DNA of 64,000 bases from Comamonadaceae bacterium 2PF (GTDB lineage: Bacteria; Pseudomonadota; Gammaproteobacteria; Burkholderiales; Burkholderiaceae_C), in the NCBI GenBank assembly GCA_005502875.1, contig SCMV01000013.1:1-64000 (forward strand), read 5' to 3'. A model generated the notes under the pieces. It had not been told where the DNA came from. It was given only the letters and a program-made list of their open reading frames with translations, and did no database searches. The position numbers and the translations under genes are program-made. This document shows, one piece after another, positions 46,977-54,438 of the stretch (within the stretch, counting starts at the first letter, position 1; the number at the start of each line of letters is the position of its first letter).

Positions 46977-48293
46977 ATGACTCAACTCACCCGCGAACAG
47001 CAAATCGCAGCCCTGGAAAAGGACTGGGCCGAAAACCCCCGTTGGAAGCTCGTCAAGCGCGGCTATTCCGCAGCTGACGTGGTTCGCCTGCGCGGCAGCA
47101 TGCAGCCCGAGTACACCCTGGCCAAGCGCGGCGCTGAGAAGCTGTGGGAAAAGGTCAACGGCGGTGCCAAGAAGGGCTACGTGAACGCTTTCGGCGCCAT
47201 CACCGCCGGTCAAGCCATGCAACAGGCCAAGGCTGGCCTGGAAGCCGTGTACCTGTCGGGCTGGCAAGTCGCCGCCGACGGCAACACCTCGGAAACCATG
47301 TACCCCGACCAGTCGCTGTACGCGTACGACTCGGTGCCCACCATGGTTCGCCGCATCAACAACACGTTCAAGCGTGCTGACGAAATCCAATGGTCGCGTG
47401 GCATCAACCCCGGCGACGAGCAGTTCGTTGACTACTTCCTGCCCATCGTCGCTGACGCTGAAGCCGGTTTCGGTGGTGTCCTGAACGCGTTCGAGCTGAT
47501 GAAGAACATGATCGCTTCGGGCGCCGCTGGCGTTCACTTCGAAGACCAGCTCGCCGCTGTCAAGAAGTGCGGTCACATGGGTGGCAAGGTGCTGGTCCCC
47601 ACGCAAGAAGCCATCGAGAAGCTCATCGCTGCTCGTTTCGCTGCTGACGTGATGGGCGTGCCCACCATCGTTCTGGCTCGCACCGACGCCGAAGCCGCCA
47701 ACCTGATCACCTCCGATCACGACGCCAACGACAAGCCCTTCCTGACCGGTGAGCGCACCCAAGAAGGCTTCTACCGCGTCAAGAACGGCCTGGAGCAATC
47801 CATCAGCCGTGGCGTTGCCTACGCTCCTTACGCCGACCTGGTGTGGTGCGAAACCGGCGTGCCCGACATCGGCTTCGCCCGTGAATTCGCGCAAGCCGTG
47901 CACGCCAAGTGCCCCGGCAAGCTGCTGTCGTACAACTGCTCGCCTTCCTTCAACTGGAAGAAGAACCTGGACGACAAGCAGATCGCCAAGTTCCAGCAAG
48001 ACCTGTCGGACCTGGGCTACAAGTACCAGTTCATTACGCTGGCTGGCATCCACATCAACTGGTTCAACACCTTCCAGTTCGCCCACGCTTACGCCCGCGG
48101 CGAAGGCATGAAGCACTACACCGAAATGGTGCAAGAACCCGAATTCGCAGCTCGCGAAAAGGGCTACACCTTCGTGTCGCACCAACAGGAAGTCGGCGCT
48201 GGCTACTTCGACGACGTGACCACCGTGATCCAAGGTGGCTCGTCTTCCGTCAAGGCCCTGACCGGCTCGACCGAAGAAGAACAGTTCCACTGA
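46977..48293 (+). CDS. aceA: Isocitrate lyase
   Basis: 438 residues; GGAG precedes the ATG. The catalytic motif KKCGHMGGK (196-204, Cys198) and the ADAEAGFGG and CSPSFNW motifs are intact. It splits isocitrate to glyoxylate and succinate, the first step of the glyoxylate shunt, used on acetate or fatty acids. Codon use is dominated by a small set (GCT, GTT, AAG), as in highly expressed genes. A 14-bp palindrome sits in the promoter region and a strong terminator follows. Confidence 0.97.
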
Positions 48294-48340
48294 TCTGCGC
48301 GGGCCGCAAGGCCCGTTGCCTGATGGGCTTGAACGCGAAA

Positions 48341-48366
48341 ACGGCACCTTCGGGTGCCGTTTTTCT
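48341..48366 (+). terminator. Intrinsic terminator of aceA
   Basis: ACGGCACC/GGTGCCGT with a TTCG tetraloop, then TTTTCTTTT. It separates aceA from the thrS leader. Confidence 0.92.
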
Positions 48367-48377
48367 TTTCGGGTCGC

Positions 48378-48383
48378 TACAAT
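48378..48383 (+). promoter_or_regulatory. Candidate -10 box of the thrS leader transcript
   Basis: TACAAT lies just after the aceA terminator. No good -35 is seen at the right spacing, so the promoter is uncertain. Confidence 0.4.
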
Positions 48384-48459
48384 CGGGCATCTGGCGCGCG
48401 CTTGATGCGTGAGCACCGTCCTGGCAAATCGTAAGGAACGTAGAAAGGCACACACGGTT

Positions 48460-48507
48460 ATGACACCGCGAACTTCGACCCCCACTTTCACCTCGACCGA
48501 GGTCTAG
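48460..48507 (+). CDS. Threonine-rich leader peptide of thrS
   Basis: A 15-residue frame, ATG to TAG, reads MTPRTSTPTFTSTEV: six of fifteen residues are Thr and two of the remaining are Ser. AAAGG lies about 11 bases upstream. A terminator hairpin follows 48 bases after the stop, and a competing antiterminator can form. This arrangement is that of a transcription attenuator: ribosomes would stall at the Thr codons when charged tRNA-Thr is scarce. It is too short to be found by standard gene callers. Function is inferred from layout and codon content. Confidence 0.72.
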   Translation: MTPRTSTPTFTSTEV

Positions 48508-48509
48508 TC

Positions 48510-48567
48510 GGCTGGCCGCTGCTTTCGCAAACCTGTTTGCTCCTACAAACCAGAAAGCGCGGCAGCC
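48510..48567 (+). promoter_or_regulatory. Antiterminator pairing of the thrS attenuator
   Basis: GGCTGGCCGC at 48510-48519, directly after the leader stop codon, can pair with GCGGCAGCC at 48559-48567 (nine pairs, one bulged G). This would sequester the 5' arm of the terminator. A ribosome sitting on the leader stop codon would cover the left arm and allow termination. Confidence 0.6.
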
Positions 48568-48580
48568 ACCGCGCTTTTTT
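48555..48580 (+). terminator. thrS attenuator terminator
   Basis: AAGCGCGG pairs with CCGCGCTT around the loop CAGCCA and is followed by TTTT. It lies 74 bases before the thrS start codon, within the leader rather than after a gene. Confidence 0.85.
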
Positions 48581-48653
48581 GTTGCCCGAACACTTTTCAA
48601 CCGGCGGCTGCACCAAGCCGGAGGGGCAACTTCCCCACTGAGGAAACACCAAG

Positions 48654-50573
48654 ATGATTTCGATTCAACTGCCCGATGGCTCCAAGCGTGAGTTTCCCCA
48701 GCCGGTGACCGTGGCCGAAGTGGCTGCCTCCATCGGCACGGGCCTGGCCAAGGCCGCGCTGGCTGGCCGCGTGGGGCAGGGCGATGCCGCCCGCCTGGTC
48801 GACACCTCCTACCGCATCGAGGCCGACACGCAATTGGCCATCGTCACCGAGAAGGACGCCGACGGCCTGGATGTCATCCGCCACTCGACGGCTCACTTGC
48901 TGGCCTACGCGGTCAAGGAGCTCTTCCCCGAGGCTCAGGTCACCATCGGACCGACCATCGAAGACGGCTTCTACTACGACTTCGCCTACAAGCGCCCCTT
49001 CACGCCGGAAGACCTGGCCGCCATCGAAAAGAAGATGGCCGAGCTGGCCAAGAAAGACGAGAAGGTCGAGCGCAAGGTGCTGCCTCGTGACGAGGCCGTG
49101 GCCTACTTCAAGAGCCTGGGCGAGCACTACAAGGCCGAGATCATCGAGAGCATCCCGGCCGACCAGGACGTGTCGCTCTACAGCGAAGGCGCTTTCACCG
49201 ACCTGTGCCGTGGCCCGCACGTGCCCAGCACCGGCAAGCTCAAGCACTTCAAGCTGATGAAGGTGGCTGGCGCCTACTGGCGCGGTGACCACCGCAACGA
49301 GCAGCTGCAGCGCGTGTACGGCACGGCCTGGACGAGCAAGGAAGACCTGCAGCTGTACCTGACCCGCCTGGAAGAGGCCGAAAAGCGCGACCACCGCAAG
49401 CTGGGCAAAGAGCTCGATCTGTTCCACATCGACGAGCACGCGCCCGGCGTCGTGTTCTGGCACCCCAAGGGCTGGACGGTTTGGCAGGCGGTGGAGCAGT
49501 ACATGCGCCAGGTCTACCGCGACAACGGCTACCAGGAGGTCAAGGGCCCGCAGATCATCGACAAGACGCTGTGGGAGAAGACCGGCCACTGGGACAAGTA
49601 CCGCGAGAACATGTTCACCACCGAATCGGAAAAGCGCGACTACGCGCTCAAGCCGATGAACTGCCCCGGCCACATCCTGATTTTCAACCAGGGGATCAAG
49701 AGCTACCGCGACCTGCCGGTGCGCTACGGCGAGTTCGGCCAGTGCCACCGCAACGAGCCCACTGGCGGCCTGCACGGCATCATGCGCGTGCGCGGCTTCA
49801 CGCAGGACGACGGCCACGTCTTCTGCACCGAAGACCAGATCCTGCAGGAGTGCGTGGACTTCACGGCCCTGCTGCAGAAGGTCTACGCCGACTTCGGCTT
49901 CACCGACATCATCTACAAGGTCGCCACTCGCCCTGAAAAGCGCATCGGCTCCGACGAGGTGTGGGACAAGGCCGAGAGCGCACTGATGGAAAGCCTCAAG
50001 GCCACCCACAGCGAGTTCACCATCGCCCCGGGCGACGGTGCCTTCTATGGCCCCAAGATCGAGTACACGCTGAAAGACGCGCTGGGCCGCCACTGGCAGT
50101 GCGGCACCATCCAGGTCGACTTCTCGATGCCCGAGCGACTGGGTGCCGAGTACGTGACCGAGGCCAGCGACCGCAAGCACCCCGTGATGCTGCACCGCGC
50201 GATCCTGGGCTCGCTGGAGCGCTTCATCGGTATCCTGATCGAGCAGCATGCAGGCGCTTTGCCTGTGTGGTTGTCGCCGGTTCAGGCCGTGGTGCTCAAC
50301 ATCACCGACGCGCAGGCCGACTACGCACGTGACGTGGCCGCGGCGCTCAACAAAGCCGGCATCCGCACCAAGCTCGACACCCGCAACGAGAAGATCACCT
50401 ACAAGATCCGCGAGCACGCGATGCAGAAGGTGCCTTACTTCATCGTGCTGGGCGACAAGGAAAAGGAAGCCGGCAAGGTGGCCGTGCGGGCCCGTGGCAA
50501 CCAGGACCTGGGCGTCATGGACCTGTCTGCGCTGACCGCGCTGATCGGCCAGGCCGCAGCCGAGCGGCGTTGA
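48654..50573 (+). CDS. thrS: Threonyl-tRNA synthetase
   Basis: 639 residues with GAGGAAA before the ATG. TGS domain (1-65), editing-type second domain with [11 protein letters not shown] and the [19 protein letters not shown] segment, then the class II core: [51 protein letters not shown] (motif 2), and [11 protein letters not shown] (motif 3). The anticodon-binding domain is C-terminal. It charges tRNA-Thr. The 5' leader carries an apparent threonine attenuator. The stop abuts the stop of the opposite-strand hybrid kinase. Confidence 0.98.
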
Positions 50574-53552
50574 TCAGCCTGCTGGCCCGCCCCCGCCCTC
50601 TGGGGGTGGTGCCAGCCAGCGCTGCAAGGTCAGCGTCAGGCGTGTGAGCTCGAAGGGCTTGGGCAGGTGGTCGTTCATGCCTGCGTCGATGCAGCGCTGG
50701 CGATCGTCCAGCGAGGCGTTGGCCGTCATGGCGATGACGGGCACGTGCTGTCGGTGAGGCATGGCGCGCACCAGGCGGGTGGCTTGCAGGCCGTCCATCT
50801 CTGGCATCTGCATGTCCATGAGGATCAGGTCGATGGCTTGAGATGGGTTCGCAGCCAGGGACACCGCTTCGCGACCGTTGCTCGCTGTGTGCACGGTCAG
50901 CCCATGCAGTTGCAGCAACTCGCAAGCCAGTTCGCGGTTGAGTTCGTTGTCCTCTGCCAGCAGCACGTTCAATCCGGCGGGCAGTTTTGCCAGCACGGGC
51001 AGGCTGGCATCTGCCGGAGCGCTCGCGGTGTCCATGGTGGCGGTCTGGTCGGTTTGCGTCATCGGGATCTCCAGCCAGAACGTGGAGCCCTCGCCGGGTC
51101 GGCTGTCCACGCCGATGCATCCGCCCATGAGCTCCACGATTCGCCGGCTGATGGCCAGCCCGAGGCCGGTGCCGCCAAAGCGCCGGGTGGTCGAGTTGTC
51201 GGCCTGTTGGAACGGCTTGAACAGACGCGCCTGGGCATCGACATCGATGCCGATGCCCGAATCCTCAACCTCGGCCCGCAGCACGGCGCGGTGGTTTTTG
51301 TCCTGTGCGGTGCTCAGGCGGATGTCGATGCGGCCCGACTCGGTGAACTTCACCGCATTGCCCCCCAAGTTGAGCAGCACCTGCCCCAGGCGGAGCGGAT
51401 CGCCTTGCATGCTCTGCGGCACGTCGGCACTGGCGTGCGTCGACAGCGTCAAGCCTTTTGAGCGAGCCTGGTCCTCGAGCGTCCAGGCCAGTTGGCGCAA
51501 CAGCGTCCTGGGTTCGAAAGGCTGGCGTTCGATCTCCAGTTTTCCTGCCTCGATCTTTGAAAAGTCCAGGATGTCGTTGATGGTGCCAAGCAGCAACTGA
51601 CCTGCGCCTTCGACCTTGCGCAGGTGGTCGCGCACGCGAGTCGGATCCAGCAGGTCATCGCGAAGCAGCAGGGCGGTCAGCCCGATGATCGCGTTCAGCG
51701 GGGTGCGGATCTCATGGCTCATGGTGGCCAGGAACGCGCTCTTGGCTTCGTTGGCGGCTTCTGCCGCCTCCTTGGCCTGTTTCAGCGGGGTGATGTCTTG
51801 CAAGGTGATGAGCAGCCCGTCGTCAAGCAACTGTCCGCCAATCAGCACATCGAGCGTGTGCCCATGCCCTGTTTTGACTTGGTACTCGCGCGCAGGCACC
51901 GTGCCATCGCCGTTGCGGGCTTGATCGAGGTCTTGCTGCCAGCGCAGGATGACCCACTCGCGGTAGGCCGGGTCGGGGTAGGCCCGCAGGAACCACTGCG
52001 CCGGGTGGCGGATGTCTTCTGCGGTCAGGCCCAGTTGGCTCATGTAGCGCTGGTTGACGGAGACGACCTCGTTGCCGCGCTGAAATGCCATGGCCACAGG
52101 CGCCATTTCATAAAGCACCTTGAACAGCATGTCCCGCTCGGCTGCCGCTTGAGCCAGCCTGGCCCGCTCCGTGTCGGCTTCAGCCTGTCGCCTTTGGGTG
52201 ATGTCCCGCGCGAGGGTGAGCACGTGCAACTGCTGGCCATGCAACTTGCGGGTGCTGGAGAGCTCGAGCCAGCGTTGACCCGATTGCGCGTTCAGGCAGA
52301 TGCTGCGGCCGAGGTCCCGCCCTTCTCTGCGAGCGGTGTCGATCGACGCCTTGACGAGCTGAGCGGCTGCATCGGGCAGGAAGGCCTCTGGTGGCTGGCC
52401 GATCAGCCTGGCGGCATCTGCTTCGATGGCGCTGCCTTCGCGGCCGGTGAAGGCGTTGACAACCCGGCCATCCGCATCGAACTCGATCAACCAATCCGGG
52501 ATGGCTTCCAGGGTGGCGGCCAGGTCCGCGCGGGCCACTTCGGTGTCCTGGTGCGCCTGCTGCAAGGCTTTGAGCGCCCCGTGCAGTGCCGACGTGCGAG
52601 CGCTCACGCGCCGCCGCAACTGCATGTTCCAAAGCAGCAGCAGGCCAGCACCCACCACCACCGTGCCGGCGGCCCACCATGCTTGAGGGGGCACCTGCGT
52701 GGCGCCGCCCTGGCTTCCCAGCCACTTCTCGCGCAGCGCCTGCTCCTCTGCTTCGGAGATGGCTTGCATGCCTTGTTCGACGAAGTTCAGCACCTCGGTG
52801 CGACCTTCCTTGACCGCCCGGTGCGCCTGTCCGGTGTAGAGCACGAACGACTGCTTGAACTCGGTGTCCACGCCGAGCTTGTAGAGGTAGAAGCGCGCGG
52901 GGCCCTCGTCAAGGCAGAAGACTTTCACCTCTTGTCGTTGAGCCGCCCGGATGAGTTGCTCGTAGTTGGCGTAAGTGGCGATGGTGCGGATGCCGACTGC
53001 TTGCAGTTGTTCGATGCAGGCATCGCCGTCTTGTGCGCCGATGAGAAAGCCCTTGAGCGTGGCGGTGTCGTGGATGCCCAGGATGTCGGTGTGGCTGTAG
53101 ATGCCGACGGGCATGTCTGCGTACGGGCGGGAGAAGTCGTACTGCGCTTCGCGCGATGGCGTGCGGTAGATCAGGTCGATGACATCCGCTTGGCCAGATT
53201 GAAGGGCCTGCAGTGCTTGGGCCCAGGGCCGCAGGGTGAATTCAACGGGCACGCCTGTCTTGCGAGACCACAGCCGCCAGCGGTCGATGAGCAGCCCCTC
53301 CGGCCCACCATCGCTGTTGCGGTAGGTGTAGGGGGGGAAGTTCTCGTCGCTGACGACGTGCAGCACCTTCAGGCCCGCAGGCTGGGCGGGTGGGGCAGGC
53401 GTTTGCTGCGCAGCAGGCAGGTCGCTTCCGAGCAGCAGGCAGCTCGCCGTCAGGCTCAGCAGGATCCGTCGCCAGCAAGGGGGCAAGGGCATGGGCGATG
53501 GGGGCGTTTGAAGTGGCGAAACATCGCGAAGACCGCGCGTGGAGTCTGCCAT
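50574..53552 (-). CDS. Hybrid sensor histidine kinase with periplasmic solute-binding domain
   Basis: 992 residues from the ATG at 53552 (GGAAGAG upstream). A signal helix, then a periplasmic SBP_bac_3 domain (about 60-300: LHVVSDENFPPYTYRN, DVIDLIYRTPSREAQYDFSRPY), then a membrane helix and two PAS domains. The kinase core has ATMSHEIRTPLNAIIGL (H-box) and FGGTGLGLAISRRIVELMGG. A C-terminal receiver carries LILMDMQMPEMDG. The solute-binding part suggests direct sensing of an amino acid or similar ligand. No partner regulator is adjacent. It lies on the opposite strand between thrS and infC, which are usually neighbours. Confidence 0.9.
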   Translation of the reverse strand: MADSTRGLRDVSPLQTPPSPMPLPPCWRRILLSLTASCLLLGSDLPAAQQTPAPPAQPAGLKVLHVVSDENFPPYTYRNSDGGPEGLLIDRWRLWSRKTGVPVEFTLRPWAQALQALQSGQADVIDLIYRTPSREAQYDFSRPYADMPVGIYSHTDILGIHDTATLKGFLIGAQDGDACIEQLQAVGIRTIATYANYEQLIRAAQRQEVKVFCLDEGPARFYLYKLGVDTEFKQSFVLYTGQAHRAVKEGRTEVLNFVEQGMQAISEAEEQALREKWLGSQGGATQVPPQAWWAAGTVVVGAGLLLLWNMQLRRRVSARTSALHGALKALQQAHQDTEVARADLAATLEAIPDWLIEFDADGRVVNAFTGREGSAIEADAARLIGQPPEAFLPDAAAQLVKASIDTARREGRDLGRSICLNAQSGQRWLELSSTRKLHGQQLHVLTLARDITQRRQAEADTERARLAQAAAERDMLFKVLYEMAPVAMAFQRGNEVVSVNQRYMSQLGLTAEDIRHPAQWFLRAYPDPAYREWVILRWQQDLDQARNGDGTVPAREYQVKTGHGHTLDVLIGGQLLDDGLLITLQDITPLKQAKEAAEAANEAKSAFLATMSHEIRTPLNAIIGLTALLLRDDLLDPTRVRDHLRKVEGAGQLLLGTINDILDFSKIEAGKLEIERQPFEPRTLLRQLAWTLEDQARSKGLTLSTHASADVPQSMQGDPLRLGQVLLNLGGNAVKFTESGRIDIRLSTAQDKNHRAVLRAEVEDSGIGIDVDAQARLFKPFQQADNSTTRRFGGTGLGLAISRRIVELMGGCIGVDSRPGEGSTFWLEIPMTQTDQTATMDTASAPADASLPVLAKLPAGLNVLLAEDNELNRELACELLQLHGLTVHTASNGREAVSLAANPSQAIDLILMDMQMPEMDGLQATRLVRAMPHRQHVPVIAMTANASLDDRQRCIDAGMNDHLPKPFELTRLTLTLQRWLAPPPEGGGGPAG

Positions 53553-53599
53553 GGGCGCTCTTCCGAGGTCCCTCTGTGGCCTTGGTGAGGTCGTTGGGT

Positions 53600-53628
53600 T
53601 TGCGCAACGCGTCGGGAGCGTGTAAACT
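53600..53628 (+). promoter_or_regulatory. Promoter of the infC-rpmI-rplT transcript
   Basis: TTGCGC (53600-53605), 17-bp spacer, TAAACT (53623-53628). The start would be near 53635, giving an infC leader of about 255 bases. The 337-bp region between the kinase and infC contains no other gene I can support. Confidence 0.6.
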
Positions 53629-53876
53629 TTCGCGCGCAAAGGTCAGTTGAGTGCGCCACGGGTGCACACGCTGGCTCTGTGCGCGCCCGGGGCGACAGAG
53701 AACCCCGGCGCGATGTCGATGAAGACTTCTGCCTCGCTGCCTTGAAGCTCGACCCAGACATCGCCGGTCAGGTCTGACGCGTGCCGTGTCTGTTCATGCA
53801 GTCTGGACAGCCGGTCGCCAACCCGCCGGGCGCGTGTTCACCGACCATTGGTTCGAGCGATTCCAACGCCGGGCCC

Positions 53877-53892: not shown

Positions 53893-54438
53893 GCTAACTT
53901 CTTTGACCGCCGCACGCGCAACGACGAGCGCAAGCACCGGCTGAACCGTGAAATCACTGCACCCGAAGTCCGACTGAACGGACCGGAGAACGAGCCCCTC
54001 GGCGTCGTCAGCATCCAGGAAGCCCTGCGACTGTCGGCCGAGCACGATGTGGACCTGGTCGAGATCTCTGCCACGGCGGATCCCCCTGTCTGCCGCCTGA
54101 TGGACTACGGCAAGTTCAAGTACCAGGAGCAGAAAAAGGCCCACGACGCCAAGCTCAAGCAGAAGGTCATCGAGGTCAAGGAAGTCAAGTTCCGCCCCGG
54201 CACCGACGAAGGCGACTACCAGATCAAGCTGCGCAACCTGCGCCGCTTCCTGGAAGACGGCGACAAGGGCAAGGTCACGCTGCGTTTCCGTGGTCGTGAA
54301 ATCACCCACCAGGACCTGGGCATGCGCTTGCTGGAGCGCGTGCGTGACGACCTGCAGGATTGCTCGCTGGTCGAAAACATGCCGAAACTCGAAGGGCGCC
54401 AGATGATCATGGTGCTGGGCCCCAAGAAGAAGAAATAA
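53890..54438 (+). CDS. infC: Translation initiation factor IF-3
   Basis: 182 residues. [29 protein letters not shown] is the N-domain and the C-domain contains [24 protein letters not shown] choose the rare start ATC at 53890, preceded by AAGGAAA, because the protein begins there in alignment with relatives; the only upstream alternative in frame is a TTG at 53848 without a site. A non-AUG start is the basis of IF-3 autoregulation in E. coli (AUU), so the same control is likely. It binds the 30S subunit and checks start codons. Confidence 0.93.

Follow-up and report, generated by a model that had tools for sequence, protein, structure and literature searches.

How might a bacterium of the Comamonadaceae match the expression of thrS, the gene for threonyl-tRNA synthetase (ThrRS), to its supply of threonine? 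The question is raised by the DNA ahead of thrS in the window, i.e., the whole stretch of 64,000 nucleotides that was analysed. A leader frame, an antiterminator and a terminator precede thrS, as a sequence-only reading of this DNA had observed. These parts very probably constitute a ribosome-mediated transcription attenuator, which would set thrS expression according to the charging of tRNA-Thr.

A leader between aceA and thrS

The intergenic gap between aceA and thrS spans 360 bases and holds the aceA terminator, a candidate -10 box and the ribosome-binding site, frame, antiterminator and terminator of the leader. The features of the locus are as follows.

46977-48293: aceA, isocitrate lyase, upstream of the leader (Pfam ICL)
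48337-48364, plus strand: terminator of aceA, separate from that of the leader (fold -19.3 kcal/mol, z -5.4)
48378-48383, plus strand: TACAAT, candidate -10 box of the leader transcript (from the sequence)
48443-48448, plus strand: GAAAGG, likely leader ribosome-binding site (invariant in the 38 rows of alignment A1, which had been selected on the start block)
48457-48474, plus strand: near-invariant start block GTTATGACACCGCGAACT, leader codons 1-5 (70 thrS-anchored same-family regions)
48460-48507, plus strand: leader peptide MTPRTSTPTFTSTEV, 15 codons, six of them Thr (translation; kept in relatives)
48510-48526, plus strand: left antiterminator arm (segment 2), pairing with 48553-48567 (duplex z -4.5 against 100 shuffles)
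48553-48567, plus strand: right antiterminator arm (segment 3), part of the 5' arm of the terminator plus its loop (folding)
48552-48579, plus strand: intrinsic terminator hairpin, with a T-run at 48575-48580 (-16.5 kcal/mol, z -4.3)
48654-50573, plus strand: thrS, threonyl-tRNA synthetase, 639 amino acids (Pfam TGS, tRNA_SAD, tRNA-synt_2b, HGTP_anticodon)

The leader frame opens with an ATG at 48460 and closes with a TAG at 48505-48507, and its threonine codons start at 48463, 48472, 48478, 48484, 48490 and 48496; sequence and coordinates thus bear out the 15 codons with six Thr that had been read there. The left antiterminator arm had been placed at 48510-48519; its pairing indeed begins at 48510, but the arm extends to 48526. 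The claimed T-run terminator ahead of thrS was recovered by folding (48551-48582, -16.5 kcal/mol, z -4.3), with none of 200 shuffles as good. The antiterminator fold (48505-48568) likewise was unmatched by 200 shuffles (-26.7 kcal/mol, z -3.6). The two structures exclude each other, and in the window the antiterminator is the stronger (-26.7 versus -16.5 kcal/mol). The leader minus its terminator (48390-48530) did not fold better than shuffles. A simple terminator scan listed the leader hairpin on the minus strand only, the plus-strand hairpin being recovered by folding, and a sigma-70 scan of the window listed no promoter at the leader. From the leader stop to the thrS start there are 146 nucleotides, with the terminator in between.

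Among the short frames of the window (8-25 amino acids, both strands), 3 of 735 contain at least six Thr codons, and therefore richness in threonine alone is not decisive. The leader stands above chance because it is conserved: it is kept upstream of 64 of 70 same-family thrS genes, and 116 of the 119 motif matches listed lie before thrS.

Conservation of the leader and variation of its parts

Within the family, conservation was assessed in a sample chosen independently of the motif. A thrS gene was present in 146 of 150 genomes, and 70 upstream regions were examined: the top 30 by score, with the own genome among them, and another 40 taken from the remainder of the list, which is not a random draw. 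The 18-base start block occurs within two mismatches in 64 of these 70 regions, the window's own among them, and exactly in 52. The resulting 64 leaders have Thr at codon 2 in 63 cases and invariably Pro, Arg and Thr at codons 3, 4 and 5; beyond codon 5, Thr accounts for 155 of 565 codons. A -10-like box begins 36-62 nucleotides before the leader ATG at 40 of 63 same-family loci, whereas an equally wide control zone has one at 2 of 63. The TACAAT of the window, at -82 from the leader ATG, lies outside this cluster. In a set of 21 genomes, leader DNA was present in 12, including the window's own, and 11 of these 12 are among the 13 genomes of the same genus.

The start block is absent from six of the 70 regions (L034, L219, L224, L225, L237 and L238). 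Four of the six retain a hairpin with a T-run and in L225 it is only weak; for L238 the check gave no orientation. In the same-genus set, L011 (genome G008) has lost the leader start and kept the terminator. Together with L034, L219, L224 and L237, where the leader start is likewise lost and hairpin and T-run are kept, this locus provides a natural test case for altered thrS control. By eye, an aceA-like coding end is seen upstream of thrS in L219 and L224, and so in other genera too; the juxtaposition of aceA and thrS that the window shows may therefore be ancient.

To look beyond the family, one genome per species (84,980 species, 257 Gb) was scanned for the 18-base block, which yielded at least 119 stretches. 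In 116 of the 119 stretches listed, thrS begins 114-306 nucleotides downstream. Those listed without thrS behind them are L129 and L131, which are cut short in the DNA examined, and L081, which was rejected as a leader, being a chance match inside a frame of 1558 amino acids. The named matches listed include Variovorax, Acidovorax, Comamonas, Delftia, Polaromonas and Rhodoferax, as well as Roseateles, Massilia, Janthinobacterium, Herbaspirillum and Cupriavidus; the nearest thrS among the listed stretches is that of Roseateles terrae (82.8%). A few metagenome bins labelled Chitinophaga or Alphaproteobacteria also match and are probably mislabelled. A model of the block (R1) matched 43 of 300 genomes of the order, a count that says nothing about other leader types, since the model is sequence-only and was trained on block-carrying rows. 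Among the 30 model-match loci fetched (the window and two repeats included), thrS lies behind the match in 29, all but L062. At the level of the class, matches outside the order (8 of 369 genomes) were rejected as leaders: all are weak, with no thrS in the DNA examined.

The individual parts were compared in 177 distinct leaders derived from 116 plus 64 loci (64 of 68 tried, four others being dropped as duplicates), all of which were selected by the block. Between leader and thrS, 175 of the 177 have a terminator hairpin with a folding energy of -8 kcal/mol or lower; in the two misses, L165 and L026, a hairpin is visible by eye and the T-run is missing or interrupted. The number of Thr codons per leader is most commonly four (80 leaders) and ranges from two (19 leaders) to eight (2 leaders). 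In 73 of 175 leaders (9 expected; mean z -1.4), the region after the stop codon pairs with the 5' arm of the terminator better than dinucleotide shuffles do (p<=0.05); the other 102 fail singly at 0.05, and these counts are not independent because the loci are related. When arms were swapped between genomes (131 representatives), own arms paired better for both antiterminator (-14.9 versus -13.7 kcal/mol) and terminator (-16.7 versus -13.4 kcal/mol), and none of 5000 permutations was as good; the antiterminator effect is modest. Between groups, the terminator stems vary on both sides (AAGCGCGG/CCGCGCTT, AAACGCGG/CCGCGTTT, AAGTGCGG/CCGCACTT, AAGCACGG/CCGTGCTT). The antiterminator includes the stop codon at some loci of family f8 and in named Massilia and Noviherbaspirillum; there TAGTCG pairs with CGGCTA or CGGCTG (L046-L048, L105, L138). 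Compared across Burkholderiales, the proposal therefore broadly stood: Thr-containing leaders, terminators and antiterminator pairing recur.

Other families of the order harbour leaders of other types. Forty upstream regions of thrS from other families were fetched, 36 of them with a recognisable start, and 20 more were fetched for candidate families. A frame richer in Thr than shuffles (p<=0.02) was found in 7 of the 36 (0.7 expected), and no such frame in the remaining 29. Of the seven, L248 was left out of the leaders; its shuffle p is low, and it lies upstream of the tRNA. In some of these families the N-termini are unrelated and the richness in Thr is kept (MQRTSTKTITYLG, MLKTDTTTLMISG, MFRTSTTTQS). 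By family, leaders were found in f5 (MFRTCTTTWC, 4 of 4 genomes), f28 (MFKRTTTTRISR and kin, 3 of 3), f3 (3 of 3, of the MTPLT type with few Thr), f39 (MPRTSTFGRFHHRRG and MPRTRTTTGFFSRRG), f14 (2 of 3, one weak), f49 (2 of 3) and f4 (2 clear of 4). They were not found in f11 (0 of 3), in f33 or in an extra f10 genome, and f13 has at most one weak leader in three. All 19 further leaders tested (one of which, L061, is of the block type) are followed by a terminator; their antiterminator pairing reaches significance singly for only three of the 19, and p exceeds 0.9 for two. Taken together, thrS attenuation by this kind of leader is best read as widespread in the order.

The Thr-rich leaders of other families often lie behind a tRNA-Val gene; tRNA-Val(GAC) is present in 22 of 30 scanned other-family thrS loci. 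In other orders of the class, none of 29 thrS upstream regions carries the block, and tRNA-Val(GAC) lies within 300 nucleotides upstream of thrS in 10 of 14 scanned loci. On these two counts, tRNA-Val before thrS looks ancestral and the leader between them looks like a later gain. The terminator of the tRNA may have been turned into that of the attenuator.

Proposed attenuation and its alternatives

According to the proposed mechanism, RNA polymerase would transcribe the leader and a following ribosome would translate MTPRTSTPTFTSTEV. With enough Thr-tRNA, the ribosome would proceed to the stop codon and cover the left antiterminator arm (48510-48519), the terminator at 48552-48579 would form and transcription would end before thrS. 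With Thr-tRNA in short supply, the ribosome would stall at one of the Thr codons, so that 48510-48526 could pair with 48553-48567, the terminator would be excluded and thrS would be transcribed. The coordinates agree with the earlier claim that the left arm would be covered at the stop codon and free on stalling: according to the accessible part of PMC4833913 a ribosome standing on the stop codon would shield some 12 nucleotides beyond it, and with the last Thr codon (48496-48498) in the A site the left arm would be largely free. The parts, their mutual exclusion and their conservation are properties of the DNA itself, from which we infer leader translation, stalling and the response to threonine. 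Since a Thr-rich frame and a switchable stop recur in many relatives, the cells probably make more ThrRS when charged threonine-tRNA runs low. Several observations count against attenuation: 19 of 177 leaders have only two Thr codons; the block is missing from six of 70 same-family genomes, four of which keep hairpin and T-run; 102 of 175 antiterminators, and all but three of those of the 19 further leaders, do not singly surpass shuffles; the swap effect is modest; and 29 of 36 other-family thrS upstream regions have no frame enriched in Thr over shuffles.

Simple attenuation neither predicts nor fully explains that the first five codons hardly vary even in single nucleotides, wobble positions included. 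In the 64 same-family leaders, the start-block codons ACA, CCG, CGA and ACT are kept in 62, 64, 61 and 59 cases, respectively, whereas further along these leaders, at positions 6-12, Thr is encoded mostly by ACC (86) and ACG (39), with ACT (13) and ACA (11) less common. The thrS residues LPDGS vary more than the block, their commonest codons reaching 25, 37, 36, 24 and 34 of 47 loci (the 47 of 70 readable by pattern; three have Asn for Gly). This contrast between block and later codons favours a leader operated by a protein, where ThrRS or another protein on the start block would halt leader translation and thereby cause termination, the Thr codons being a second input. E. coli ThrRS, which binds its own leader according to the available text of PMC11088916, provides a precedent. 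However, an anticodon-arm-like hairpin was not seen by eye, the short GGT/ACC hairpin at the leader start codon is lost where GGTT becomes GCGTT (e.g., L066, L067, L069, L071 and L072), and families with Thr-rich leaders exist that do not have the block. We consider this alternative unlikely.

Several other explanations were examined. Pairing of the block with the region after the stop codon (a 1:2 protector stem) beats shuffles at p<=0.05 in 39 of 175 leaders (p 0.5 in the window) and may explain part of the invariance. The remainder may be due to protein binding, to a tuned site of initiation or to slow codons. The GGT/ACC hairpin was rejected as a cause of the invariance, as it is not kept in loci with GCGTTATG, and so was pairing of the block with the terminator, since the stems vary (GCGCGG, ACGCGC, GTGCGG, GCACGG and GGCCCC types) while the block is constant. 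An antisense partner in trans was likewise rejected (the block complement has one other match in its own genome, with 3 mismatches, and a reversed control also has one), as was an upstream frame coupled via ATGA, which has a stop close upstream and no start in between. A rather doubtful proposal holds that GTTATGACACCGCGAACT acts as a second RNA-level sensor, with a trans-acting factor, possibly ThrRS, at the leader RBS region. The leader would then be a two-input attenuator reading charged tRNA-Thr and enzyme level, and the device might derive from a tRNA-Val gene, the terminator of which was co-opted to govern the following gene.

The hairpin might also be the ordinary terminator of an upstream gene next to a chance frame, without regulation. 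In other families, tRNA-Val precedes thrS and is itself followed by a similar terminator, and four of the six block-less same-family genomes retain the terminator, as this explanation would have it. Yet the window provides aceA with a separate terminator, which counts for the attenuation reading of the leader terminator, and the leader is kept in 64 of 70 regions and tied to thrS in 116 of the 119 stretches listed. These data largely contradict the explanation and leave it very improbable. That the leader boosts thrS translation by reinitiation or coupling, as is proposed generally for leader genes in the accessible part of PMC4833913, is the least credible reading, since the proposal requires a short distance and here 146 nucleotides and a terminator separate stop and start.

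Attenuation by charged tRNA-Thr might reach beyond thrS. In 14 of the 18 relatives where infC was matched, that gene follows thrS closely, and therefore initiation factor 3 could be affected too; two others have infC on another contig. In the window and in genome G001, infC is more than 3 kb away from thrS (window regions 50574-53639 and 54169-54426). Between thrS and infC the window carries, on the minus strand, a hybrid sensor kinase with a solute-binding domain (SBP_bac_3, PAS_4, HisKA, HATPase_c, Response_reg).

Comparison with known leaders

Leader-peptide transcription attenuators of Proteobacteria are known from the amino acid operons trp, his and thr and from pheST, and T-boxes bind uncharged tRNA directly. 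The thrS leader shares with the trp, his, thr and pheST attenuators a short frame rich in cognate codons, mutually exclusive antiterminator and terminator, and a left arm at the stop codon. It differs from them in its target thrS, in the nucleotide invariance of its start block and in the lack of an Rfam match. No Rfam family, Thr_leader included, reached its curated threshold over the leader; a permissive search of 48300-48700 gave only seven sub-threshold matches, to other families, and the T-box covariance model did not match at the leader.

A literature search retrieved no thrS attenuator described for this group. A survey of synthetase attenuators from 2010 may list thrS (Lopatovskaya et al., cited in PMC4833913, in the part available, on the attenuation of aminoacyl-tRNA synthetase operons). 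The main text of PMC2965389 does not mention thrS, and the accessible portions of PMC5688073, PMC7011215 and PMC4035088 contain neither "thrS" nor the name threonyl-tRNA synthetase. In Burkholderia cenocepacia, short 5'UTR RNAs with attenuation precede two tRNA synthetase genes, BCAL3373 and BCAL3436, according to the same portion of PMC5688073.

The idea of a thrS leader peptide is not new across all bacteria, because a threonine-dependent thrL-thrS leader peptide was proposed in Streptomyces lividans (PMC8079986, available text). The likeness consists in a leader peptide before thrS that is read as threonine-dependent; unlike the leader described here, MKRVRPFLETTPGFVPAR has two Thr, a leaderless transcript and unclear termination, and it belongs to another phylum.

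In E. coli, ThrRS binds an operator of anticodon-like hairpins in its own mRNA and blocks translation, as stated in the accessible text of PMC11088916, with which the contrast drawn by the sequence-only reading agrees. Both systems place thrS control in the 5' leader; there it works by ThrRS binding and a translation block, whereas here a leader frame and a terminator would serve. In Bacillota, thrS has T-box leaders (PMC12452182), and the B. subtilis thrS leader contains a terminator (PMC3997798), both according to the parts available. These leaders resemble the present one in having a terminator before thrS and, as the title of a B. subtilis study cited in PMC3997798 indicates, in a response to threonine starvation. 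As T-boxes they differ from the present leader, which has no T-box match.

The proposed mechanism is of a known kind, and neither Rfam nor the parts of the literature searched yielded thrS as its target in this group. The leader offers a testable answer to the question of how thrS follows the threonine supply in Comamonadaceae, Oxalobacteraceae, Cupriavidus and others among the named matches. If true, attenuation would add a third way of controlling thrS to the two known from the E. coli operator and the T-box.
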